Shown: one piece after another, positions 7,252 to 64,000 of the stretch
Layout: each line of letters opens with the position of its first letter
How positions within the stretch are numbered: position 1 is the first letter of the stretch
Virus record (IMG/VR): IMGVR_UViG_3300005577_000028
Location: 27,403 to 91,402 of that record
Length of the DNA: 64,000 nucleotides
Reading direction: 5' to 3' (one strand)
Origin: a virus
Notes under the pieces: model-generated
Seen by the model: only the letters and a program-made list of their open reading frames with translations
What the model was told of the DNA's origin: nothing
Databases searched by the model: none
Translations under genes and position numbers: made by a program

Positions 7252-8799
7252 ATGAGCATCATCGATTCGATTCGTATGAGTCAACGACGGCAGGCCATGC
7301 TTGCTTCAGGAGCAGCCGTCGAAATGCTGGCCCCGACTGCCGTCGCCGGACTCGTCGTCTCGATCGGTGATGTGATGCAGAACGGCAAGTCGATCCAGTA
7401 TCAGCGTATGCTGAACTCGGCCTTCAAGAAGATCAAGCATGCGGTCCTGGTCGCGAACCGCGACAAGGCGGTGCCGAAGTTGGCGCTCGAAGCCGAAGAG
7501 TCGGAGGCGATGGAGACCTTGATCGGCGCCGTCAAGTCTGGCTTCAGCACTGCGATCGAGACCCTGTGCGAAGGTCTGTTCTCGTTCATCCCGTTCGCAA
7601 TCGAGACCGTGGTAGCACCACTCTTCACGCTTGCGAGCTGGACTATCGCGGCTGTGCTTCCTCTGATCCTGACGCCGGAAGGGCTGGCCGTCGTTGGCAC
7701 CATCGCCCTCGGCACCTTCTTCTACAAGCGCTGGAAGGCTTGGGAGTCGGGCGAATCCGAAGGGGAGTACAAGCCGGCCGAGCCACAGGTGCCGAGCCTG
7801 CGTGCGTTCCAGCCGAGCGCAGCTGGTGTCCCTCCTTCGACCGCTGCCGAAGCGCCGATGACAGGTCTCGAAGCACGTGGCTTCAGGAACAACAACCCGG
7901 GCAATCTTCGATACGCGCAGCAGCCCGGAGCCCTGCCTCAGTCGGGACCGTTCGCGCAGTTCGCGACACAGGGTCAAGGACTCTACAACCTGGGGCGACA
8001 GATCGAGCTGAACTACAGTCGTGGCACCAACACCGTGACCTCGATGATCTCGACGTGGGCACCGGCGACTGAGAACAAGACCAAGGAATACATCGCTGAC
8101 GTGTCGCAGCGCATGAACGTCAAGGCCGATGACAAGCTGGATCTTGGCAAGCAAGAAGTGCTGGCAGCGCTGATGAAGGCAATCATCATCCATGAGAACG
8201 GCTCGTGCCCGTACTCGGATGCACAGATTGCGGAGGCAGCTGCACAGGCCCTGGGCTTTGCGGCCAACGGCTACAAGGATCAGGGTGAGACCGATGTCCG
8301 ACTCGTGTATCCGACGAGCGGTGTCATCTCGTCTCCCTTCGGTCATCGTGAGAAACCGATTGAAGGCGCGTCGACAGAGCACCAAGGTGTCGACATCGCG
8401 GGTTCTGAGGGTACCGCCGTGGTCGCAGCCGCAGCAGGTACAGTGGAAGTGGAGCGTGAGTCGAGCTCCTACGGCAATTTCATCCAACTCAAACACGCCA
8501 GCTTCTGGACTCGCTATGGTCACCTCTCTGCCTTCAACGTCAAGCAGGGCGAAGCCGTTGTCGCCAGACAGAAGATCGGCACCATGGGCTCCACCGGCGT
8601 TAGCACCGGAGCCCACCTCCACTTCGAAGTCCAACCCTTCACGTCAACGCATCCTGTCGATCCTGCGACCTACCTTGCGTCCCTCGGGCGTGGCTCACAC
8701 GTGGCCGCTTCCGAGGTCAAGCCCGCTCCGATAGCTGTTGCCCCAAGCGACAAGCTGTTCATCAAGCAGGGCGACCGCATCATCACTCTGAACTCTTGA
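7252..8799 (+). CDS. Tail-associated lysin: lysozyme-like plus M23 endopeptidase
   Basis: A 515-aa virion peptidoglycan hydrolase likely to open the cell wall for DNA entry. Hydrophobic helices occupy about residues 100-165. At 209-221 is RGFRNNNPGNLRY, the signature of structural lysozyme/transglycosylase-like domains found in phage tail lysins. An M23 metallopeptidase domain spans about residues 345-470: the zinc ligands appear intact as His377 and Asp381 in HQGVD and His457 in HLHFE (His455 being the catalytic partner), and YGHLS supplies a further conserved His. M23 enzymes cut glycine or meso-DAP peptide bonds. A short C-terminal tail ends in IKQGDRIITLNS. It starts three bases after the tape-measure gene and resembles multi-domain tape or hub proteins of other phages. 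Confidence 0.85.
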   Translation: MSIIDSIRMSQRRQAMLASGAAVEMLAPTAVAGLVVSIGDVMQNGKSIQYQRMLNSAFKKIKHAVLVANRDKAVPKLALEAEESEAMETLIGAVKSGFSTAIETLCEGLFSFIPFAIETVVAPLFTLASWTIAAVLPLILTPEGLAVVGTIALGTFFYKRWKAWESGESEGEYKPAEPQVPSLRAFQPSAAGVPPSTAAEAPMTGLEARGFRNNNPGNLRYAQQPGALPQSGPFAQFATQGQGLYNLGRQIELNYSRGTNTVTSMISTWAPATENKTKEYIADVSQRMNVKADDKLDLGKQEVLAALMKAIIIHENGSCPYSDAQIAEAAAQALGFAANGYKDQGETDVRLVYPTSGVISSPFGHREKPIEGASTEHQGVDIAGSEGTAVVAAAAGTVEVERESSSYGNFIQLKHASFWTRYGHLSAFNVKQGEAVVARQKIGTMGSTGVSTGAHLHFEVQPFTSTHPVDPATYLASLGRGSHVAASEVKPAPIAVAPSDKLFIKQGDRIITLNS

Positions 8800-53274: not shown

Positions 53275-54036
53275 ATGAACGAAGACCAAACCCAACAGCC
53301 GATCATCGACCCCTCGATGCCGGCTGTTCTCGACTCTGAACTCCTGATCGGCATCACGGGCCCGGTCGGAGAGCAGACCTACCTCATCATGGATCGCACG
53401 GTCCGGGTCAAGGTCACCGAGGCCGAGATGCGCGAGATCCTGAAGGGTCCGTACTCGCTGCCGACGATCGCCGAGTTCTACATGATGGCCGAGAACCTGC
53501 AGCAGGCGATGCCCGACGGCATCTACTACCTGCACGGCACTACCATCGACGACATGCTGGACCTGCGCCGTGGCTGCGGTGACCTGGCCGTCATGATCGA
53601 CCACGGTCGTATCCGCACCCTGTTCGGCCCCACAGCTGGCGAGCGCGATGCGATCCTGGTGCGCCGTCCTCGTGTCCAGACGCGGATGGCCGAGCACGGT
53701 CCGCTGCGCAAGGTCAACGCGCCGCGCATCGCCTTCCTCCAGCCGGGCAAGGACCCGCGGTCGTGGAAGCTGATCGTCGAAAGCGTGCAGGTCCTGGACT
53801 CGACCAGCGGCAAGACCTGGGAGCAAGCGCAGGACATGGAGTCGCAGATCAACGCGAACTTCGCGCGATCGCAGCCCGTGATCGACCAGCAGCGCTGGAA
53901 GAAGCTCGAGCGCAACTCGACGGTGATCCATCCCGACCACAACCACCTCAAGGGCTCGACGCTGATCCGAGTCACGGGTCAGGGCGACACCGTCGAGAAG
54001 ATCCTCGACTCGATCAGAGAGAACAAGGTGCTGTGA
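53275..54036 (+). CDS. Protein of unknown function
   Basis: A 253-aa soluble protein preceded by the leader ACAGAGGACACC, also used before the clamp-loader gene. Its alpha/beta mixture (LIGITGPVGEQTYLIMD; MREILKGPYSLPTIAEFYMM; SWKLIVESVQVLDS) carries no motif I recognise. It precedes a tandem pair of membrane proteins. Confidence 0.5.
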   Translation: MNEDQTQQPIIDPSMPAVLDSELLIGITGPVGEQTYLIMDRTVRVKVTEAEMREILKGPYSLPTIAEFYMMAENLQQAMPDGIYYLHGTTIDDMLDLRRGCGDLAVMIDHGRIRTLFGPTAGERDAILVRRPRVQTRMAEHGPLRKVNAPRIAFLQPGKDPRSWKLIVESVQVLDSTSGKTWEQAQDMESQINANFARSQPVIDQQRWKKLERNSTVIHPDHNHLKGSTLIRVTGQGDTVEKILDSIRENKVL

Positions 54037-54248
54037 TGGCGAGGCGCAGCGAAGCAGAAACGTGGGCTGTCCTAGCCTTCGTGCTCGTGGTGCTGACCGC
54101 GGTCGGCGGCTGGTGGTTCTTCAAGCCGCACGACACCGTGGTCTCCAAGTGCTACGATGGCCAGCTCTGGACCACGTACTGGAAGAAGGGACGGCACAAG
54201 GACAAGCTGATCCTGGTCGACGACAAGCCTGTCACTTGCAAGGAGTAG
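54036..54248 (+). CDS. Single-pass membrane protein with Cys pair, copy 1
   Basis: A 70-aa protein. One transmembrane helix (WAVLAFVLVVLTAVGGWWFF) leads to a short domain KCYDGQLWTTYW ending LVDDKPVTCKE. The two Cys could form a disulphide if this part is periplasmic. The next gene is a paralogue. Possible roles include superinfection exclusion or envelope modification, neither shown by sequence. Confidence 0.55.
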   Translation: MARRSEAETWAVLAFVLVVLTAVGGWWFFKPHDTVVSKCYDGQLWTTYWKKGRHKDKLILVDDKPVTCKE

Positions 54249-54250
54249 CC

Positions 54251-54499
54251 ATGAGCAACGCAGCTGGACGAGACGGTGATGCGGCTCTCGGTCTGTGGGT
54301 GGTTCTCATCATCGGTGGGTTCGTCTTCGCGATCTACGAGATCCTGACGGCACCGAAGTTTGAGCACGTACCGCCACCTGTCCCGACCGTGCAGACCACG
54401 TGTCACGGTGGCCAGGTCTGGACCAGCCACTACTTCAAGGGGAGCCAGAGGCCGGACAACATGATCCTGGTCAACGGGCAGCCCGTCGACTGTAAATAA
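54251..54499 (+). CDS. Single-pass membrane protein with Cys pair, copy 2
   Basis: An 82-aa protein with TM helix LGLWVVLIIGGFVFAIYEIL and a C-terminal domain TCHGGQVWTSHYFKG ending LVNGQPVDC. It matches the preceding gene in layout: a Cys/Gly-Gln-x-Trp-Thr segment, an ILV(D/N)xxPVxC strand and two Cys. Stop at 54497-54499. Confidence 0.55.
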   Translation: MSNAAGRDGDAALGLWVVLIIGGFVFAIYEILTAPKFEHVPPPVPTVQTTCHGGQVWTSHYFKGSQRPDNMILVNGQPVDCK

Positions 54500-54523: not shown

Positions 54524-55663
54524 ATGACGCAAGAAGTGAAGAGCGCACTTTTCCACACGCGCTACCGACCCGAGACCTTCGAGCGGATGATCGGCCACGA
54601 GCAGGCCGTGACCCGCGTCAAGGGCATCATCGCCAAGGGCAACTGGCCGTCGGCGATGCTGATGACTGGCGCACCATCGGCGGGCAAGACGACGCTGGCG
54701 CGTTGCATCGCCACGGCCATCAACGGCAAGTCGATCGCCGAGCAGGTGCGGAACGGCACGTACCGTGAGATCGACGGCGGCTCGCAGCGCACCATCGATG
54801 ACATGCGCGAGCTGATCCAGAACTCGCGGCACAAGCCTATGGGCGGCGGCAAGCGCATCTTCGTCATCGACGAGGCGCAGTCGATCCTGACGAACAAGCC
54901 GGCCGCGCAAGCGTTGCTGAAGCCCATCGAGGACTCGGGCACCAGGGACACCATCTGGATTCTGTGCTCGATGGACCCGGGCAAGTTCCAGACCACGACC
55001 GAAGGCAAGGCCATCGCCGGCCGCTGCACGCAGTTCGTCCTTCCGCCGCACACGCAGTCCGATCTCATGAAGATGGCGAAGCGCATCGTCGTCGGCGAAG
55101 AGATGACGTACATGAAGGACAGCGAACTCCTGACCAAGGTCGTGGAGCGCGCTGGCACCATGCGCGAGATCGCGAACCAACTGCAGGCCATCTCCGAGTA
55201 CTACGAGGGGCTGGAGAAGAAGCCGAAGAAGCTGGACGAGGAAGCCCTCATGGAGGTGCTGACCAGCATCGAGGGCAACGACGATGCGGCCGTGGCTACG
55301 ATCCTGAGCTCCGCACTCGTCGGCAAGTTCACGCAGGCGCAGCTCGCGATCCTCGACATCGGCGACAGCTTTCAGGCCATCAACAAGATGGTGATGGCCG
55401 CGAACTTCATGCTCAACATGATCGTCCTCAACGGCAAGAAGCACCCGAAGCTCATTTGGGCTCCGGTGTGCCGCATGGCCTGGGAGAAGACGAAGGGCCA
55501 GAAGATCCCTCTCGGTCACTACGCCGGGCTGCTCGAGACGACCGTCCAGCTGAAGAACGAGTCGATGGACTTCACGGTCGACGCCGGCGCTCTGATCTCG
55601 CAGAAGATCTACCGCTACATCAAGAACGTGGTGGCCCCGGCAGCTGCCGAGAAGAAGGACTGA
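54524..55663 (+). CDS. Sliding clamp loader AAA+ ATPase (gp44-like)
   Basis: A 379-aa clamp-loader ATPase that would open and load the replication clamp. Walker A is GAPSAGKTT (49-57), Walker B is VIDEAQ (114-119), sensor-1 lies at IWILCSM, and AGRC (165-168) corresponds to the Arg-finger SRC motif of T4 gp44 and RFC subunits. The C-terminal collar domain is helical. It is longer than T4 gp44 (319 aa). The leader ACAGAGGACACC and the TGTAAATA element precede it. The small gp62 partner was not identified. Confidence 0.85.
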   Translation: MTQEVKSALFHTRYRPETFERMIGHEQAVTRVKGIIAKGNWPSAMLMTGAPSAGKTTLARCIATAINGKSIAEQVRNGTYREIDGGSQRTIDDMRELIQNSRHKPMGGGKRIFVIDEAQSILTNKPAAQALLKPIEDSGTRDTIWILCSMDPGKFQTTTEGKAIAGRCTQFVLPPHTQSDLMKMAKRIVVGEEMTYMKDSELLTKVVERAGTMREIANQLQAISEYYEGLEKKPKKLDEEALMEVLTSIEGNDDAAVATILSSALVGKFTQAQLAILDIGDSFQAINKMVMAANFMLNMIVLNGKKHPKLIWAPVCRMAWEKTKGQKIPLGHYAGLLETTVQLKNESMDFTVDAGALISQKIYRYIKNVVAPAAAEKKD

Positions 55664-55664
55664 C

Positions 55665-56306
55665 ATGAGCAGCCACACCAACGACGCGTACCGCGAAGGT
55701 TGGGATCGGATCTTCGGTCGGTTCGCCAAGGCATACCTCGATGCCCAGGTCAGGCACATCATCAGGCACGGTCCCGATGTGGCTGTCAACATGTACCCGG
55801 ATAGGCCGACGTTCGAGGAGATCGTGGCTCGACTCGAGACCGTGATCTTCGTCACCAACAGGCTCGACGCGTCGTTGGTACCGAAGCACGGAGCCTGCGT
55901 TCCGTACTACGTGAACGTGAAGGACAAGCACATCGCGCGCTGGCACGAGATCATCGTCAAGCACTGGGCAGGATGCTACTTGAACTGCTCTGTCGACGAG
56001 ACGCACATGATCGCGGGCCTGCAGCGTGGCTTCATCGATCTCGAGCGCCATGCTCTCACCGAGGAAGAGCACTTCACGCTGGTACCGAAGCCCCAGTGCG
56101 AGGCAGAACGTGATGAAGCCTGGCGCGCGGGACTCAACGTCATTCGCAACATCGTGGGCCGCGGTCTCGTTCTTTGGGAGGGGCTGCTGTGGGTTGATGG
56201 CCGGTGCCGGATACCGATGCTGTTCCCACACGACAAGCGTGAAGCAGAGATCCGAGCAACGCTGCGTGCGCTGATCAGTCGTGGCATTCTCCCGTCCAGG
56301 GACTAG
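55665..56306 (+). CDS. Unknown protein with DRIFG N-terminal tag
   Basis: A 213-aa protein beginning with AYREGWDRIFGRFAK. The YxEG(W/Y)DRIFG peptide recurs in the 107-aa ubiquitin-like protein downstream and is common near the start of small phage proteins. Two Cys residues and several His are present but no clear metal motif. Confidence 0.5.
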   Translation: MSSHTNDAYREGWDRIFGRFAKAYLDAQVRHIIRHGPDVAVNMYPDRPTFEEIVARLETVIFVTNRLDASLVPKHGACVPYYVNVKDKHIARWHEIIVKHWAGCYLNCSVDETHMIAGLQRGFIDLERHALTEEEHFTLVPKPQCEAERDEAWRAGLNVIRNIVGRGLVLWEGLLWVDGRCRIPMLFPHDKREAEIRATLRALISRGILPSRD

Positions 56307-56340
56307 ACCATTTCACAACCTCAATACAAGGAACAAGGCA

Positions 56341-56664
56341 ATGAGCCGCAAGAACGACATCACGGGCGCCGAGCTGGTGACGAAGGCCAACACCAAGGAG
56401 TACGCCGAGGGGTACGACCGCATCTTCGGCAAGCCGAAGGAACGAGACCCGTTGGCCGGGACCCTGAAGTGCTTGCAGATCGAGGTCAACGGCAAGCTCT
56501 ACAACGTCGGCAACCCGTCGATGACGAAGGAGAAGATCCTCAAGCTGGCTGGCATGACCGACGGTCGCGTCACCTTCCGGCGCGGCGGCTACGACGTGGG
56601 CCTCAACGATGGCGAGTCGATGCCGGTCTTCCAAGGCCAGCGCTTCTTCGTCAAGGAGCGCTAG
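56341..56664 (+). CDS. Ubiquitin-like (multiubiquitin-type beta-grasp) protein
   Basis: A 107-aa protein. Residues 1-40 contain the phage tag YAEGYDRIFG. Residues 44-107 resemble the prokaryotic multiubiquitin domain: IEVNGKLYNV strand pair, PSMTKEKILKLAG helix, VTFRRGGYDV strand, then LNDGESMPVFQGQRFFV, the closing half with its typical G-E-S and G-x-x-F. The C-terminus is FFVKER, so no diglycine for conjugation. ATG 56341 is the first ATG with the correct frame; the upstream ORF extension is unlikely. Similar domains elsewhere sit with E1, E2 or JAB proteins, none found here. Confidence 0.5.
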   Translation: MSRKNDITGAELVTKANTKEYAEGYDRIFGKPKERDPLAGTLKCLQIEVNGKLYNVGNPSMTKEKILKLAGMTDGRVTFRRGGYDVGLNDGESMPVFQGQRFFVKER

Positions 56665-57054
56665 ATGAGCAGGTGTGACTCGTGCAAGCACTTCTACCAG
56701 AACGCCGTGGGCAATGCGCGTTGCGGCGCTGACCAGATGTTCCAGGACTTCAGCTGCCACACCGGACTGCCGGCCAACGTGAACCCCGTCGGCTGCAAGG
56801 CCTACTCGATCAACGAGCTGGACGAGCTGCGCAAGGTCGTCTACAAGCGGGTCATGTTCGGCACCTCCTACATGCAGGTGAGAGACCTGCCCGATGGCGA
56901 GTTCACGATCCCGCACCGTCGCTACCTCGATGACAAGGACCCGCGGTTCACGGCTACGGTCGAGGACCAGGTGCGGACCCTCATGGTGGCCGGTGTCGTG
57001 GCTGCCGACGTGATCGCGGCTGACAAGTACTACTTCGAGGAGTCGAAGAAATGA
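56665..57054 (+). CDS. Cys-rich N-terminal protein between the ubiquitin-like genes
   Basis: A 129-aa protein with five cysteines at 4, 7, 20, 31 and 44 (CDSCKHFYQN opening), likely one zinc site, then a helix (INELDELRKVVYKRVMFGTS) and a C-terminal acidic part. It begins at once after the 107-aa ubiquitin-like gene and overlaps the next ubiquitin-like gene by four bases. Confidence 0.55.
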   Translation: MSRCDSCKHFYQNAVGNARCGADQMFQDFSCHTGLPANVNPVGCKAYSINELDELRKVVYKRVMFGTSYMQVRDLPDGEFTIPHRRYLDDKDPRFTATVEDQVRTLMVAGVVAADVIAADKYYFEESKK

Positions 57055-57824
57055 TCCACGACTACAACCCCATGCGGAACCTGCCGGCGGCATTGCTGAA
57101 CGAGGACGGCCACAAGTCGCCGATCACGATCAAGCGCCAGTTCGGCATCGCCATGCCTGAGGACTTCAACGGCAAGTGGTTCCACTCCGTCGGCGCGTTT
57201 CTGGCGGACCCGAAGCGCCAGTCCGGGACCTGGGTCATCACATCGGACGCGTGGTCGTTCGAGCCCGTCTACGTGGCCTGGAACGATGTGAGCCGCGAGT
57301 GGATCAACGGCGGGATCGAGGGTCGCAACCTGTCGAACCCGACCATCTACGTCAACGGTCTGACGTTCAAGGCGCCGGCAGCGGGTCTGATCGATCGCTC
57401 GACGCTGATGACGATGATGAGCCTCACCGGCGATCCCGAGAACTACAAGTTCGAGTACAGGGTCGGCACGGGCTTCGCCGAGATCACGACGCACATGGTC
57501 CAGACGGCACACCAGATGCATTTCAAGGCCACGCCGCGCGATCCGAAGATCGTGGTCGCCGACCTGCTCTCCTGGCTGGCGGGTCTCAACTGCGTGCGTG
57601 CGCAGCTGACGAAGGAAGTCGTGGGCCCGAGAACCATGGAGACCTTCGCGCGTGAGAACTGGTTGTCCGACACGGACTTCAGGGAGATCCAGCGCGCCGG
57701 CGTCTTTTGGCGTGTGAACATCTGCATGGACTGGAAGTCCGACGGGCACTTCTTCTTCGGCGCAACTCCGCAGCGCACGCTGCAGCAGGCCAAGGACAAG
57801 CACACCCGTGGAGAGCTGAAGTGA
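57051..57824 (+). CDS. Protein with second ubiquitin-like domain
   Basis: A 257-aa protein. Residues 97-161 resemble the multiubiquitin domain: IYVNGLTF strands, a helix DRSTLMTMMSLTGD, EYRVGTG strand and the closing MHFKATPR. This is a separate, divergent copy from that at 56341. N- and C-terminal parts are of unknown fold; Cys at about 178 and 232. A four-base overlap couples it to the GTG-start gene at 57821. Confidence 0.45.
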   Translation: MIHDYNPMRNLPAALLNEDGHKSPITIKRQFGIAMPEDFNGKWFHSVGAFLADPKRQSGTWVITSDAWSFEPVYVAWNDVSREWINGGIEGRNLSNPTIYVNGLTFKAPAAGLIDRSTLMTMMSLTGDPENYKFEYRVGTGFAEITTHMVQTAHQMHFKATPRDPKIVVADLLSWLAGLNCVRAQLTKEVVGPRTMETFARENWLSDTDFREIQRAGVFWRVNICMDWKSDGHFFFGATPQRTLQQAKDKHTRGELK

Positions 57825-58063
57825 TCCCGTTCGATCAGCTCATCTCGTGGATATCGGTGGCACTCATCGTCGCCTTCGTGTTCGTGCTCCGATCTCTTGT
57901 CTTCGCCATGAAGGAAACCGAAGTGGAACTCCACGACCTGAACCGGATGATCGAGCGCCTGCAGCAGCCGGAGACCAAGAAGCGGAAGTCGCATCTCAGC
58001 CAGGCCGGCATCGAGATGTGGCTGAAGCGCAATCTCAAGCGGCGGAATGGGATCAGGCGATGA
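57821..58063 (+). CDS. Small membrane protein with coiled-coil tail
   Basis: An 80-aa protein with GTG start at 57821 (GTGA overlap) and AGAG in the leader. N-terminal transmembrane helix (LISWISVALIVAFVFVLRSL), then charged helix ELHDLNRMIERL and a strongly basic end. Unknown function. Confidence 0.5.
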   Translation: MIPFDQLISWISVALIVAFVFVLRSLVFAMKETEVELHDLNRMIERLQQPETKKRKSHLSQAGIEMWLKRNLKRRNGIRR

Positions 58064-58587
58064 GCAGGTCACAAGACATATTGCAGACGCTGGAGCAGAC
58101 GCTCTTCAGCCACTACCCGGGTCTCGAGTCCGTTGCCGCGAAGAAGCTGCTGCGCACCTGGGTTGCGCTGAACTTCGATTCGCAAGGTGGGCTCCAGTGT
58201 CTGCCGACTCCGGTACTGCCTGTCAGCAAGCTCCTCAACACGGGGCAGCTTGGTGAGAACGGGAAATGCAGGCACGGTGGCGGCCGTCAGGGCGCTCGCT
58301 GCGTCAGCCACTGTGGCAACAGCGACTGCACGGGCCCCGTCGAGCTCGCTGCCGACGTGCAGTGCCCGAACCTCACGGCCTGCTTCATCGTCGAGTGCGA
58401 ACAGAACGAGCACGACTCGTGGGCGCGATCTTCGTTCGATCCGCCGCCAAGTCTCGAAGACTATCGAGTCATATGCCATGAACGTCCGCGAGAACGCATC
58501 TTCACCATGAAGTGCATGTGCCGTACTCACCAGACGCTACTCATGCGAGTCCGCACCGAAGAGCGAGTCACCTACGAGAAGGCATGA
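58060..58587 (+). CDS. Cysteine-rich protein of unknown function
   Basis: A 175-aa protein from ATG 58060, with many cysteines (47, 70, 81, 85, 90, 102, 108, 113 and more). The run GKCRHGG, ARCVSHCGNSDC and QCPNLTACFIVEC suggests one or two zinc or iron sites. It follows the ubiquitin-like cluster. No family is recognised. Confidence 0.5.
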   Translation: MSRSQDILQTLEQTLFSHYPGLESVAAKKLLRTWVALNFDSQGGLQCLPTPVLPVSKLLNTGQLGENGKCRHGGGRQGARCVSHCGNSDCTGPVELAADVQCPNLTACFIVECEQNEHDSWARSSFDPPPSLEDYRVICHERPRERIFTMKCMCRTHQTLLMRVRTEERVTYEKA

Positions 58588-59048
58588 TGACCAAGTACAC
58601 AGCCGAACAAGTGAAGGACATGAGCGAGCTGATCGTTCGTGCTCTGCAAGAGCCGAACCTCATCGCCGCTCTGTCCTTCGTTGCCGTTTGGGACACCGAA
58701 CGAGCCATCGAGCAGGCGCGACGGAACAACTTCGAGTCCTGGGAGACGTGCACTCGTTTCCTCTTCACCGAGGTCGTCAACGCTTGGAATGCGAGGGACG
58801 GTGACATCGAATGCCCGCGGACTCCGATGTGCACCCTGACCACCGTGGAGCCTGAGCGTCTGCAGCATCGCACGGTCGAACGTCGTGCGTCAGTTGCTGA
58901 GGAGCGCGAAGGCCCCGCAGCACGGAAGGCTCACAAGTCGCCGGTCGTCTCCTTCTGGCGATCGGTCTGCAAGTGTGCGACGCACGGCCATACCTTTGAA
59001 CGGGAGCGTGCGCTGCGTGGTACGATTGAATACAAGGAGTTGCTATGA
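58584..59048 (+). CDS. Small protein of unknown function
   Basis: A 154-aa protein (two ATGs at 58584 and 58587) with helical N-terminal half and a C-terminal CKCATHGHTF segment resembling a Cys/His metal site. Coupled to both neighbours. Confidence 0.45.
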   Translation: MMTKYTAEQVKDMSELIVRALQEPNLIAALSFVAVWDTERAIEQARRNNFESWETCTRFLFTEVVNAWNARDGDIECPRTPMCTLTTVEPERLQHRTVERRASVAEEREGPAARKAHKSPVVSFWRSVCKCATHGHTFERERALRGTIEYKELL

Positions 59049-59461
59049 GCGACCTCGACCTGATCCTCACGTCCAACGTGAACGAGTTCCTGACAAAGCG
59101 CGGGAACGGCTCGCTCTTCGAGTCTGCGCCATGGCTGTACCGAACGAACGAGGTCGACATTGCTGCGGGGACAAAGGTTCGTGTTCCCCTGTCCGAGTTT
59201 CTGAGCCGCGAGTTTGTGTCTGACGGCACGGTGGCACTGAGACGCGTGCAGCCGAGCGTGACGCTGACCGCGAACCAGATGGAGCGGCACAACGTGACTC
59301 GGCAGCTGCTGGCCTCGGAGCAGCGCTTCATCGACATGATGAACAGGAAGGACGAAGGCGTGCTCCATCTCTTCCGCTTCAGCAACGAGTGGAGCTGGCG
59401 CGAGTGGGCCGGCCGGATGGACTTCACGCGCACCGTGAGTGCGATCAAGGAACTGCAATGA
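59045..59461 (+). CDS. Small protein of unknown function
   Basis: A 138-aa soluble protein with no clear motif; helical C-terminus. AAGGAG precedes ATG 59045. Confidence 0.45.
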   Translation: MSDLDLILTSNVNEFLTKRGNGSLFESAPWLYRTNEVDIAAGTKVRVPLSEFLSREFVSDGTVALRRVQPSVTLTANQMERHNVTRQLLASEQRFIDMMNRKDEGVLHLFRFSNEWSWREWAGRMDFTRTVSAIKELQ

Positions 59462-59946
59462 ACGACGATCAACGCGACTACATGCGGCGAGGCACCGAGA
59501 GCTTCCTCTGCACGGTGGCCTTCAGCCACAAGCCCTTCGACGGCAAGCGGCGCTACACCCACCTGCCGTGGGACGAACAGGCGCGGCCGCACTTCGACGG
59601 GCATCGAGTGCGCATGGTCCGTGTCGTGGACCCTGAAATGGTGCCGCGTACTGTCGAGACCGAGATCGAAGGCGCGCACTACGCGTCGATCAACGTCCCG
59701 GTTGTCCGGCTCTGGTTCGTGAACACGCCGGGCTTCCGTTCCTTCCAGGACACAGTGCGCGAGATGCAGCGGCAGGACGAGTTCCTGGTCTCGCGACTCG
59801 GTACCGAACGCACGATCAAGGAGCGGCTGCTCTATCGCGAAGACGAGCGCATCCGCCTCTGGCACTCTGGCTGGCGAGCCAAGGTCCACGATGATGGCCG
59901 GTGGGAATTCGAGGCAAAGACTGCAGCAGTGAGGATCATGCGGTGA
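59458..59946 (+). CDS. LWHxGW-motif protein, copy 2
   Basis: A 162-aa protein. The last 30 residues (IRLWHSGWRAKV then WEFEAKTAAVRI) match the end of the 51850 product, while the rest is unrelated. ATG 59458 overlaps the previous stop. Confidence 0.5.
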   Translation: MNDDQRDYMRRGTESFLCTVAFSHKPFDGKRRYTHLPWDEQARPHFDGHRVRMVRVVDPEMVPRTVETEIEGAHYASINVPVVRLWFVNTPGFRSFQDTVREMQRQDEFLVSRLGTERTIKERLLYREDERIRLWHSGWRAKVHDDGRWEFEAKTAAVRIMR

Positions 59947-60197
59947 CGTTGGTGAACAAGTACCAGGAAGTCGAGGACCTGATCGTGGCAGCGATCCGGC
60001 GCGGCCAGAAGACCGATCATGTAAATAACGGGGTGATCTGGAACGCGATGTCTGAAGTGACGGAGCGCGACGACAACCCGTATGTCGCCAACGCCATCAA
60101 GACCCGGATGCAGAAGTTGCGCGACCAGAAGATCATCCAGCACTGCCGCACCAACGGCTGGTCGTTGGTCCCCAAACCCGAACAGGAACAATCATGA
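59943..60197 (+). CDS. Small winged-helix-like protein
   Basis: An 84-aa protein with GTG start at 59943. The helical sequence (VEDLIVAAIRRGQKTDHVNN and AIKTRMQKLRDQKIIQHC) resembles a small winged helix used for promoter or protein binding. The TGTAAATAACG element at 60020 lies within it. Confidence 0.5.
   Translation: MTLVNKYQEVEDLIVAAIRRGQKTDHVNNGVIWNAMSEVTERDDNPYVANAIKTRMQKLRDQKIIQHCRTNGWSLVPKPEQEQS
60020..60030 (+). promoter_or_regulatory. TGTAAATAACG element inside a gene
   Basis: TGTAAATAACG uses rare codons GTA and AAT within the 59943 gene, 163 bases before the portal-like gene at 60194. Same 11-mer as at 3896 and 54491. Confidence 0.45.
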
Positions 60198-60550
60198 GCG
60201 AACCCAAGACCCGCAAGATCACGACCATCGTCGCCGGCGGCGACATGTGGGAGCCCACCCACGAAGAACTGCAGACCCTCGTCGAGCAGTTCATGCACGC
60301 GGACATGGACCCGAACGGCTCCGTGGTAGCGACCACGACCTCGAAGCCCGTGAAGGTCCGTGTCATCGATGTCACGGCTTCCGAGGGCATCCTCGCTTCG
60401 ACCGGCTGGCTCAGCGACAAGGACATCGAGCTCTGCTGCGAGGCGGCGGCGCGCGCTCAGCACGGTCTGCCCGCTGGCTCCGAAGAGCGCACGCGTGCGG
60501 GCATCCTGGCCTTCCGTGCCCGGCTCGATCTCCGCATGAACGAAGACTGA
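60194..60550 (+). CDS. Small protein with a copied portal wing segment
   Basis: A 118-aa protein whose residues 13-42 (VAGGDMWEPT, then ELQTLVEQFM and DPNG) align without gaps with portal residues 275-304: 18 of 30 identical. Codons differ, so the copy is diverged. The rest (ending RARLDLRMNED) has no portal similarity that I see. It could bind portal partners such as terminase or an assembly factor, or regulate packaging. It lies 59 kb from the portal gene, in a small-gene operon. Confidence 0.65.
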   Translation: MSEPKTRKITTIVAGGDMWEPTHEELQTLVEQFMHADMDPNGSVVATTTSKPVKVRVIDVTASEGILASTGWLSDKDIELCCEAAARAQHGLPAGSEERTRAGILAFRARLDLRMNED

Positions 60551-60561
60551 GAGGAACGACG

Positions 60562-61170
60562 ATGAGCAACAAGCTGAGCACCAAGACCGTGCAGCACCTC
60601 CAGAACGCGAAGGCGCTGATCGGCAACAAGATGGAGTCGTGGCTGGGTCGTGAGCCCTTTCCCGGCGAGGCCGAGAAGCGCTACAAGGGCATGATGTCCG
60701 ACGTGAACTTCGAGCTCCACGAGTACGAGACCACGGACGGACCGCAGCCGCCGATGAGCCCGCACCTCGCGGCCGTGCTCAACGAGTACAAGGGCCTGCT
60801 CGAGGACACGATCCTCTTCTGGACGAGTCGCGATCAGGCGACGGCCACGAGCTACGAAGCCGTGCTGAAGGATCTCGAGCAGCTGCTGGAAGTGACCGAA
60901 GTGCTGCCGGGTGCGCCGGTGCCGACGCCGGCCCAACGTCCGAATGTCCGCTGCATGGAACTCGGGCGCTGCAAGATCAAGGTCGTGAACGAGACGATGC
61001 GGGCTGACACGCCGACGCAGACGCCCAACGGCCAGTGGATCTTCGATGACCCGGAGGTCTATCGCCAGAACCGCGAGTGCATGACGTGCGGCCGGCAATG
61101 GACGACCTCGGTCAACCACGGCCAGTCCGGCACGTTCGAGGTCAAGGCTCCGCAGAGGATCATGCTATGA
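60562..61170 (+). CDS. Protein with C-terminal Cys pairs, unknown
   Basis: A 202-aa protein; start ATG 60562 after GAGGAACG. Helical middle (YEAVLKDLEQLLEVTEV) and a C-terminal part with RCMELGRCKI and ECMTCGRQW, likely a zinc ribbon. Coupled to the next gene by ATGA. Confidence 0.5.
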   Translation: MSNKLSTKTVQHLQNAKALIGNKMESWLGREPFPGEAEKRYKGMMSDVNFELHEYETTDGPQPPMSPHLAAVLNEYKGLLEDTILFWTSRDQATATSYEAVLKDLEQLLEVTEVLPGAPVPTPAQRPNVRCMELGRCKIKVVNETMRADTPTQTPNGQWIFDDPEVYRQNRECMTCGRQWTTSVNHGQSGTFEVKAPQRIML

Positions 61171-61562
61171 GCAACGGCCGCATCTATCGACTGAAGGTCG
61201 ACCCGCTCCCGCTCTCGGTGTGCCGGCCCGGTGCTGTCTACGAGTACATGGCATACGGTGATCCGCTGAGCAGACCGGCCTTCGGACCGGAGCAGGTTGC
61301 GCGAGACAACATCAAGCGGCACGCGATCCCCGTCAAGTACTACGTGGCCAAGGGCGAGGACGCGTTCATCGCCATGGACAAGGAAGTCTTCGAGCTCATC
61401 GACTTCGTGTTCAACGAGGAACGCGAGAACCTGACGCGCGTGGCCGCGAACTACAACCGGAAGCACGAGGACCTGGATCTCAAGGTCAAGGCCGACAAGC
61501 GAGCGTTCAACGCACTGCCCTGGTACAAGCGTGTCTGGCTCGCCTTCAAGAAGAACGTGTAA
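61167..61562 (+). CDS. Small protein of unknown function
   Basis: A 131-aa protein with helical second half (VFELIDFVFNEERENLTRVA then NRKHEDLDLKVKADKRAF). Ends WLAFKKNV. The stop overlaps the TGTAAATA element at 61558. Confidence 0.45.
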   Translation: MSNGRIYRLKVDPLPLSVCRPGAVYEYMAYGDPLSRPAFGPEQVARDNIKRHAIPVKYYVAKGEDAFIAMDKEVFELIDFVFNEERENLTRVAANYNRKHEDLDLKVKADKRAFNALPWYKRVWLAFKKNV

Positions 61563-61569
61563 ATAGACG
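61558..61569 (+). promoter_or_regulatory. TGTAAATA element upstream of basic-protein gene
   Basis: TGTAAATAGACG, sharing the TGTAAATA core with the other elements, lies across the stop of the 61167 gene, 22 bases before GTG 61592. Confidence 0.4.
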
Positions 61570-61591
61570 GATCTACAGAACGGAGAACGAA

Positions 61592-61963
61592 GTGGCAAGT
61601 GCGAATCGCAAAGTGAAGGCTGCGGCCCTCAAGCCCCGCAAGACACCGGCGGCCAAGAAGGCGGCAACCGGCGTCGAGTGGAAGAACAAGACCATCGCCG
61701 AGGTCGAGGTCTCCGAAGGCCATCACTGGGTGGCACAACTCAGCGCCTGCAACGACGGCCGCAAGCTCCGTTCCGTCAAGCAGGTCATCACCAAGCGCGA
61801 CGGCACCCAGCACTTCATCAACGGCTTCATGACCAAGAACGAGCCGGACGGCAAGGAGCTGAAGATCATCATCGGGCTGCTGCTCAAGGTGATGCCGAAG
61901 ACGGCCAACCTCGGGTCTGTCCTCAAGGCGGTGAAGGCCGCAATCGCGGAGCGTGAAGCATGA
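61592..61963 (+). CDS. Basic N-terminal protein, unknown
   Basis: A 123-aa protein with GTG start at 61592, ACGGAGAACG upstream. The first 27 residues are Lys/Ala/Pro-rich, possibly for DNA contact, then a beta-alpha domain (HHWVAQLSACNDGRKL, IIIGLLLKVMPKTANLGSVL). No known family. Confidence 0.5.
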   Translation: MASANRKVKAAALKPRKTPAAKKAATGVEWKNKTIAEVEVSEGHHWVAQLSACNDGRKLRSVKQVITKRDGTQHFINGFMTKNEPDGKELKIIIGLLLKVMPKTANLGSVLKAVKAAIAEREA

Positions 61964-62688
61964 AGCACAAGATCATCGCCATCGCCGGCAACATCGGCTC
62001 GGGCAAGGACACGGTCGGCGACTACCTCGTCAAGAACCACGGCTTCAAGCGCATGAGCTTCGCCGGCGTCATGAAGGATGCCATGGCCTCCATGTTCGGC
62101 TGGGATCGCAAGATGCTGGACGGCACGACCGAGGAGTCGCGCGAGTGGCGCAACGAGATCGACGAGTGGTGGACGGAGAAGCTGGACCTCGATCAGGCGG
62201 TGACGCCGCGCTGGATGATGCAGAACTTCGGCACCGAGGTCGTCAGGCGCAACCTCCACGACAACTTCTGGATCTTCGCGCTCCAGCGCCAGATCGAACT
62301 TCACGACGGCCCGGTCGTCATCACCGACGGCCGTTTCCTGAACGAGCTCTACCACGTCCACGAGTGGGGCGGCCAGGTGTGGGGCATCCACCGTCGGCAG
62401 CCCGATTGGTTGCGGCCCTTCTACCGCGAGGTCGAGAAGGGCGGGCTCACGCAAGAGGCGTGGTCCCAGCTCAACCTCGCCAACGAGAAGATCCGCATGG
62501 ATCTCCTGGGTCAAGGGCGTCTCGCCATGGCTGCCATCGCCAACAGGTTCGTCGGCGGCGTTCCGATCCACGAGTCGGAGTGGCAGTTTACGCTCTGGAA
62601 CGACTACGACCTCATGATCGACAACCGCACTTCGTTGCCTCACACCTTCGACCAGGTCGAGGCGCGGCTGCAAGGCAAGGACAAGTAA
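61960..62688 (+). CDS. Deoxynucleoside monophosphate kinase
   Basis: A 242-aa P-loop kinase like T4 gp1, which phosphorylates dNMPs for phage DNA synthesis. Walker A is GNIGSGKDT (10-18); KDAMASMFGWD and VVITDGRFLNEL follow in the positions of the substrate-binding and second-acid segments. Length matches the family (241 aa for T4 gp1). Confidence 0.8.
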   Translation: MKHKIIAIAGNIGSGKDTVGDYLVKNHGFKRMSFAGVMKDAMASMFGWDRKMLDGTTEESREWRNEIDEWWTEKLDLDQAVTPRWMMQNFGTEVVRRNLHDNFWIFALQRQIELHDGPVVITDGRFLNELYHVHEWGGQVWGIHRRQPDWLRPFYREVEKGGLTQEAWSQLNLANEKIRMDLLGQGRLAMAAIANRFVGGVPIHESEWQFTLWNDYDLMIDNRTSLPHTFDQVEARLQGKDK

Positions 62689-64000
62689 ATGCTACTCATC
62701 ACGGAGATCGGCCTCGGCGGCGTTGCCGACTTCAAGCCGACGGTTCTCAAGGTGACGCCGGGCGTCACCTACCTGTATGGCAAGAACATGCTGATGGACG
62801 GCATCGGCAACGCCGCTGGCAAGTCTGTGTTCGCCTCCAGCCTCGCCGACATCTTCTACGACACCCCGATGGTGGGCGAGAAGACCGACAAGCCGAAGAC
62901 CGGCGTTCGCATGGTTCGGTTCAAGCGCGGCGACAAGGACATCAAGATCCAGTCGACGTTCAAGGGCCGGTCGGAGCGATTCAAGATCGCGGTCGACGGC
63001 GTCGAGAAGAAGGGCCGCACTCCGTCGATGACGAAGAAGCTGGCGCCCAAGTACTGGCCGATCAACGAGGACGAGTTCCGGACCTACGGCTTCCTCTCGG
63101 CGAACGTGCCGCATCCGCTGGTCATGGGGAACTCGACTGCGCGCAAGGCCTTCTTCACCTCCTTCTTTCAACTCGACCGTCTCGACGCCGAGAAGAAGGT
63201 GCTGGCCGCCTACAGCTCCGAGCTGAAGAAGGTGAGGGCCAGGTTCAACGAACTCGAGACCACGTTCAACGCGGTCAAGACCGACATGCTGAAGAAGGGT
63301 CAGCGGCTGGAGCTCGAGTCTCAAGTCGCTGACCTTTCCGCTCGTCTGAAGGCGCTGCGTTCCAAGTCGGATCGTGCGGCCAAGGTCAAGTCGCTCCTGA
63401 GCTTCGAGTCGTTCGCCAAGGACAAGATCGAAGCCGGCCTCAAGCTCTGCTCCGACTTCGATGAGCTGGAGCCCATGATTGCCGGCTTGCAGAAGCGTCG
63501 CAGGGCCGCACTCCGTGCGAGCGAACAGCTAGCCGAGTACAAGGCGTACAGGCGTGCGCTCGAGGCCTGGGAGACCGCAGCCGAAGGCATCGACACCCGG
63601 GACGACATGCGTACGCTGGAGGACGCGAGCGCCAAGTTCACGAAGGCGACGGCCGAGCTCCGGGTCTACGAGAAGCTGGTCGACCCGCGGCTGATCCATC
63701 CAGGGCACCTGTTGGACCCGGTGACGAAGCCTGAGCAGTCGAAGGACGAGCTGGCCGAGATGCGGGTCAAGCTGCGCCACCTGCAGGAGCACAGCCGCAA
63801 GTTCAGCTCGGGCGTCTGCGACGAGTGCGGTCAACCCGTGGCCAAGGCCGACCCGGAGAAGATCGACCGCATGAAGTCCAAGGTCAAGAAACTGGGCGAC
63901 GCATGGGACAAGTACGACGAATGGGCAGAGCATCGTCGTAACTTCGAAGCCGAGCTCAAGGACTACGAGCCGAAAGCGAAGCGCCGTGACGCAGCCGAGA
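62689..64000 (+). CDS. gp46/Rad50-like SMC nuclease subunit, truncated by window end
   Basis: From ATG 62689 the frame stays open to base 64000 (437 codons visible). An N-terminal ATPase motif lies in GIGNAAGKSVFASSLAD (GNAAGKS, about residues 41-47), followed by long coiled-coil segments rich in Glu, Lys and Arg. Cys377 and Cys380 in VCDECGQPV form a CxxC zinc hook. This matches T4 gp46, which with gp47 processes DNA ends for recombination-dependent replication. No gp47 partner was seen in the window. Confidence 0.8.
   Translation, partial: MLLITEIGLGGVADFKPTVLKVTPGVTYLYGKNMLMDGIGNAAGKSVFASSLADIFYDTPMVGEKTDKPKTGVRMVRFKRGDKDIKIQSTFKGRSERFKIAVDGVEKKGRTPSMTKKLAPKYWPINEDEFRTYGFLSANVPHPLVMGNSTARKAFFTSFFQLDRLDAEKKVLAAYSSELKKVRARFNELETTFNAVKTDMLKKGQRLELESQVADLSARLKALRSKSDRAAKVKSLLSFESFAKDKIEAGLKLCSDFDELEPMIAGLQKRRRAALRASEQLAEYKAYRRALEAWETAAEGIDTRDDMRTLEDASAKFTKATAELRVYEKLVDPRLIHPGHLLDPVTKPEQSKDELAEMRVKLRHLQEHSRKFSSGVCDECGQPVAKADPEKIDRMKSKVKKLGDAWDKYDEWAEHRRNFEAELKDYEPKAKRRDAAE

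Follow-up and report, generated by a model that had tools for sequence, protein, structure and literature searches.

Three small open reading frames, encoding products of 107, 129 and 257 amino acids with a cysteine-rich one in the middle, have been located on the plus strand of the window (the whole 64-kb stretch of DNA that was analysed, bases 27403-91402 of the 91.4-kb IMGVR record G000, a fragment of a jumbo phage), as an earlier note on this DNA had described. The features of this region are:

54524-55663, plus strand: clamp loader (DNA polymerase III gamma/delta'-like; PHROG 5846, E=7.8e-65), left edge of a variable block
55665-56306, plus strand: gene for a 213-aa protein whose N-terminus has the second half of the phage peptide (NDAYREGWDRIFGR, 55680-55721; motif scan)
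56341-56664, plus strand: gene for the 107-aa protein, a phage N-terminal peptide followed by a single multiubiquitin-type, predicted beta-grasp domain (Pfam PF14452, above cut-off)
56341-56433, plus strand: N-terminal peptide of the 107-aa protein, residues 1-31, of the NDITGAELVTKANTKEYAEGYDRIFGK type (motif scan; predicted to be disordered)
56470-56661, plus strand: multiubiquitin-type ubiquitin-like domain, residues 44-107 of the same protein (Pfam, our own HMM, hhalign, AlphaFold, Foldseek)
56665-57054, plus strand: gene for the 129-aa protein, whose N-terminal ~45 residues contain five Cys, a possible metal site (sequence)
57051-57824, plus strand: gene for the 257-aa protein, overlapping the 129-aa gene by 4 bases (relative only in a sister virus)
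57330-57542, plus strand: residues 94-164 of the 257-aa product, claimed as a second ubiquitin-like segment without being established as one (weak hhalign alignment)
61960-62688, plus strand: dNMP kinase (PHROG 139, E=6.7e-43), right edge of the variable block
62689 to the window end (64000), plus strand: SbcC-like gene (PHROG 77, E=1.5e-18), right edge of the variable block

Translation of the 107-aa protein probably starts at the ATG at 56341 rather than at the GTG further upstream (56281), since the conserved peptide begins at the former in its relatives. The stop of this ORF abuts the start of the 129-aa ORF (TAG/ATG) and the next two overlap at the sequence ATGA, so that all three look like part of a single transcription unit that includes the genes on both sides. 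Our own gene caller, which makes an excess of antisense calls on this GC-rich genome, served only for locating large ORFs. Elsewhere in the window, at about 54036-54248 and 54251-54499, the products of two adjacent small ORFs are related: each probably spans the membrane once, and both have a common end (C.G..W ... ILV(D/N)..PV.CK). The two ORFs are probably a tandem duplication.

The terminase of the record shows 50% identity to those of the Burkholderia jumbo phages BcepSauron and Saruman (~263 kb) and 45% to that of Achromobacter phage Motura (221 kb), and by sequence the record belongs with these phages as jumbo-phage kin. Its clamp loader is 41% identical to that of Motura and 39% to that of BcepSauron, and the interval from there to the SbcC-like gene (window 54524-62689) holds ~7 kb of different small genes. 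This block is considered variable because in BcepSauron it is absent, SbcC lying directly after the clamp loader, and because Motura has ~10 other small genes between its clamp loader and an SMC-family gene. A PF14452 search of four jumbo relatives (BcepSauron, Motura, PaBG and Lauda) found no member of the family. The same block is present in a sister virus (L002, 139 kb) with 98.4% DNA identity across 17.7 kb; both it and our record are fragments, complete related genomes being 201-263 kb in size. The two encode the same 107-aa protein, their genes differing by 4 synonymous codon changes and no non-synonymous one, which is thin evidence of selection since the only carriers are these two closely related viruses.

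Using Pfam, residues 46-104 of the 107-aa product are matched by Multi_ubiq (PF14452) at 31 bits (E=3e-7; curated cut-off 24.5). An independent profile of 49 bacterial multiubiquitin domains, gathered from plasmids and genomes, finds the protein at 29 bits with HMMER, the top score among 6000 shuffles being 8.6; by hhalign it scores 43.6, with 17.6 for the top shuffle among 400. The domain gives 18.2 bits with a profile of internal repeats and 9.1 with one of terminal repeats, and is thus nearer the former; a profile of bacterial terminal repeats alone misses it (6.6-9.1 bits, near the shuffles). That only profiles holding internal repeats find the domain is a reason not to read too much into the match, and it indicates the type of repeat that the domain resembles. 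In the AlphaFold model of the protein, residues 1-41 are disordered and the domain is confident from residue 43 on (pLDDT about 79-92), with the strand order beta-beta-alpha-beta-beta plus further short strands. The best Foldseek match of this model in the PDB is 9cd2, an E. coli multi-ubiquitin protein (E=1.6e-4, rmsd 1.9 over 67 columns); 8u38 is matched as well, and the next ranks include 9ea8 (BubA in complex with BubCD), 9d5a, and 9d59 and 9d5b, which represent multi-ubiquitin filaments, known here from PDB titles alone. The sequence match and this fold match are not independent evidence, since the alignment behind the model contained bacterial multiubiquitin members. The domain is predicted to have the beta-grasp fold on which membership turns, and the 107-aa product is very probably a member of the Multi_ubiq family, in agreement with what the earlier note had claimed for it. 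Its shortness, the GC-rich DNA and the many antisense ORFs might suggest a chance resemblance or a spurious ORF, but this has a vanishingly small likelihood, being refuted for the 107-aa product by the Pfam score above cut-off, the shuffle tests, the confident beta-grasp model and the synonymous-only change between the two viruses.

Scans of viral and genome contigs that used the 107-aa domain as a single sequence detected it in the sister virus only, and scans with the terminal-repeat alignment or with the domain of a huge phage (LR756511.1, described below) gave zero viral relatives; scans of this kind need short conserved stretches, and distant members without them may escape. A structure search of a viral structure library produced nothing better than E=0.12. 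Weak tblastn matches in phages and plasmids (Microcystis, Enterococcus and Streptomyces phages, Borrelia and others) had E values of 3-9 and were counted as chance, including the Microcystis phage match, which sits within a tail gene cluster.

Outside the ubiquitin-like domain, the first ~31 residues of the 107-aa protein, MSRKNDITGAELVTKANTKEYAEGYDRIFGK, form a peptide with the short motif ND[IV]TGD...Y..N[YW]DRIFGK and the wider consensus (A/S)xxN(D/G)(I/V)TG(D/A)x(I/L)...N(S/T)K..Y.(D/E)(N/G)(Y/W/F)DxIFGK. A motif scan of viral contigs gave 197 confirmed stretches, and the best 80 loci of these (L023-L102) yielded 65 distinct proteins, so that the peptide heads at least that many distinct small phage proteins, with the N, T and G and the I of DRIFG invariant. 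The C-termini behind it are unrelated -- none at all, zinc ribbons, helical segments, a repeated ELNKSTGEV segment, and others -- and it also occurs as a stand-alone protein of about 48-60 aa, for example gp60 of Pseudomonas putida phage pf16. Pfam and PHROGs scans of the peptide-bearing proteins tested named no family for the peptide. For the 213-aa protein encoded just upstream, which has the second half of it, a homologue search of phage records found none. The peptide looks like a short phage binding or address element, and its sharing among so many proteins points to an uncharacterised targeting element in many phages.

The terminal repeats of bacterial multi-ubiquitin proteins end not in GG but in Ser, with T/S at -4; this T/S-x-x-S tail is seen in 25 of 26 complete repeats. 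The 107-aa protein ends in FFVKER, short of that tail and with no C-terminal diglycine, and of the invariant K-V-K-D-G-M-I-F it retains V, G and F only. Among 76 bacterial multiubiquitin-domain loci (several from the same genomes and some incomplete at their ends), an E1 is found in the locus in 71 and a DUF6527 gene, by HMM, in 57. ThiF/E1, JAB, Prok-E2_A and Prok-E2_B were sought in the 91.4-kb record and its 139-kb sister, both fragments, and none was found; a search of the two for DUF6527, run without a positive control, gave zero matches. The absence of a C-terminal diglycine and of any visible E1/E2, from which the earlier note had argued against classical conjugation, is borne out, for E1/E2 across both fragmentary records, and the argument is strengthened by the lack of the T/S-x-x-S tail and of most of KVKDGMI. 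Classical conjugation of the 107-aa protein is not supported by its sequence.

With the bacterial BubA/PF14452 structures (9cd2, 8u38, 9d5a, 9d59, 9d5b, 9ea8), the 107-aa protein shares its family, its predicted fold, the VNG strand and the LAG-type end of the helix. Unlike bacterial BubA, it is phage-encoded, with one domain behind a phage peptide, without an adjoining E1 and with no DUF6527 match in the search that had no positive control; unlike the BubA terminal repeats, it lacks the C-terminal tail and the KxKDGMI motif and is nearer the internal repeats. Neither the neighbouring E1 of a Bub operon (in the fragmentary record and sister) nor the T/S-x-x-S tail is found. Bacterial multi-ubiquitin operons have already been described (PMC11354881, PMC13373217), and the anti-phage system BilABCD has as its BilA a bacterial ubiquitin-like modifier resembling ISG15 (PMC11354881). 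BilA has two domains and is processed to a C-terminal Gly, with E1, E2 and JAB in its operon; the 107-aa protein has none of these, being a single domain without diglycine and without ThiF, JAB, Prok-E2_A or Prok-E2_B in the fragmentary records. Tailed phages are already known to encode a ubiquitin-like beta-grasp domain in the TAPI of lambda and T1 (PMC1779556). TAPI, however, is related to ThiS/MoaD, keeps its C-terminal Gly and is encoded among tail genes beside the JAB/NlpC protein TAPK, whereas the 107-aa domain is of the Multi_ubiq type, lies in an accessory block on the replication side and has no JAB, and so does not answer to the description of a TAPI.

Of the two neighbouring products, the 129-aa protein has no match above cut-off in Pfam, PHROGs, NCBIfam or PADLOC and a relative only in the sister virus, and the 257-aa product has zero matches in the same four libraries. 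It was in residues 97-161 of the latter that a second ubiquitin-like domain had been claimed, giving two such domains in adjacent genes; the first of these stands and the second is not supported. With HMMER, the 257-aa product is within the shuffle range for all three profiles. By hhalign, its residues 94-164 align collinearly and end to end; an equal or better score comes from 5 of 400 shuffles, though never across 60 or more columns, and the aligned segment ends in MHFKATPRD, which resembles the closing strand of Multi_ubiq. AlphaFold modelled the segment by itself only poorly (pLDDT 49, pTM 0.32), in a beta-beta-alpha-beta-beta order, and a fold search with this uninformative model gave no match. 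Neither a match between the 257-aa product and a Klebsiella phage (E=0.01 over 53 residues) nor a match in PaBG (E=0.006, 13 bits, with an internal stop) is informative. The second domain is unproven. The full earlier reading, by which the 107- and 257-aa products are both ubiquitin-like and make up a paired system, draws on the end-to-end alignment, equalled over that length by no shuffle, and on the strand order of the model, but it is unlikely given the empty library searches, the HMMER score at shuffle level, the five equal hhalign shuffles and the missing fold match.

A second phage case has been identified in the 595-kb phage LR756511.1, where a 148-aa protein matches Multi_ubiq in its C-terminal half (L022:7782-8228; 24.6 bits in Pfam, just above the cut-off). 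Like the 107-aa protein, it is a phage-encoded single Multi_ubiq domain without an adjoining E1. Unlike it, this protein has a clear terminal-repeat match (37-41 bits with both terminal-repeat profiles, ending in TGDA), an N-terminus with Cys (C-x2-C ... C), possibly metal-binding, in place of the DRIFG peptide, and ThiF and JAB genes in the genome. The ThiF E1 (E=2.4e-32) and the JAB (E=2.8e-8) are near each other, ~209 kb from the Multi_ubiq gene: at about 280.6-282.5 kb on the minus strand (L173:6617-8542), the JAB gene, a 214-aa gene and the ThiF E1 gene are consecutive. With LR756511.1 as a second case, the multiubiquitin domain has probably been captured by phages at least 2 times, in differing forms, and two unrelated phage lineages show the Multi_ubiq family leaving the E1-linked operons. 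The E1 and JAB of LR756511.1 show weak similarity to proteins of the PRTRC cassette. A Rhizobium plasmid protein (L017:2809-3225) likewise has a Cys/His-rich N-terminus followed by a single multiubiquitin domain, with E1 undetected in its locus.

The reading that we prefer, with a probability of roughly 0.55, is that the 107-aa protein is a captured BubA-type domain serving as a non-conjugated binding module together with the phage peptide, possibly against host Bub/Bil pathways. A jumbo phage lineage would have captured the domain and joined it to a phage-specific disordered peptide, the domain keeping its beta-grasp core and losing the conjugation tail. Loss of the tail suggests that the protein acts by non-covalent binding and not as a tag, which we regard as likely. 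The peptide would most likely bring the domain to a phage or host partner, where the domain would take up a binding surface otherwise used by a ubiquitin-like protein of the host. Possible targets are one of the repeats of a host multi-ubiquitin (Bub) chain or filament and the E1 of that pathway, which would then be blunted. Such action against a host Bub/Bil-type pathway is put forward only tentatively. Since the domain resembles internal repeats, which do not carry the C-terminal end, and filaments appear among the PDB titles, the protein could cap or disturb host multi-ubiquitin assemblies. In its most specific form, that of a counter-measure against Bub-type pathways by a tail-less single repeat with an address peptide, which would cap or poison the chains or filaments of host BubA or block their E1, the idea has rather little likelihood. 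An anti-Bub role is without a demonstrated opponent, because the anti-phage action of Bub operons is suspected, not demonstrated (PMC13373217). Two further points weigh against the preferred reading: an E1 could lie elsewhere in the phage genome, both records being fragments, and an E1 decoy should have retained the conserved C-terminal motif, which is missing here.

A role as an adaptor in the phage is almost as likely as the preferred reading. The same peptide stands alone or is joined to other segments in many phage proteins without a ubiquitin-like domain, and the 107-aa gene is downstream of the clamp loader and of a gene with half of the peptide, as might be expected if the domain were an ordinary interaction module and the peptide the functional unit, for example as a link to the replication machinery. 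Taken strictly, with no host ubiquitin-like pathway involved at all, this is somewhat doubtful: a block that varies among jumbo relatives is more in keeping with accessory or host-interaction genes than with core replication, and Multi_ubiq is otherwise nearly always E1-linked, as in the 71 of 76 loci mentioned above. A classical decoy or hijack, with the host E1 activating and conjugating the 107-aa protein, or with the protein competing as a mock substrate, would accord with its being of the same family as the conjugated bacterial BubA proteins, and LR756511.1, with its terminal-like domain and its own ThiF and JAB, also counts in its favour. It is nonetheless improbable for the 107-aa protein, which lacks the T/S-x-x-S tail and the KxKDGMI residues, is nearer the internal repeats, and shows no E1/E2 in its fragmentary record.

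A literature search, mostly of papers available without subscription, found no phage multiubiquitin-type domain outside an E1-linked operon, nor a fusion of one to the peptide. If the counter-measure reading is true, we know of no earlier phage antagonist of a multi-ubiquitin pathway, and the protein would suggest that Bub pathways are indeed active against phages; in any case it offers a small protein for testing whether phages answer them. Apart from this locus, a 491-aa protein encoded at 7324-8799 of the window matches endolysin/lytic transglycosylase families at residues ~160-310 and metallo-endopeptidase families at ~330-465, and is probably a two-enzyme virion-associated lytic protein.
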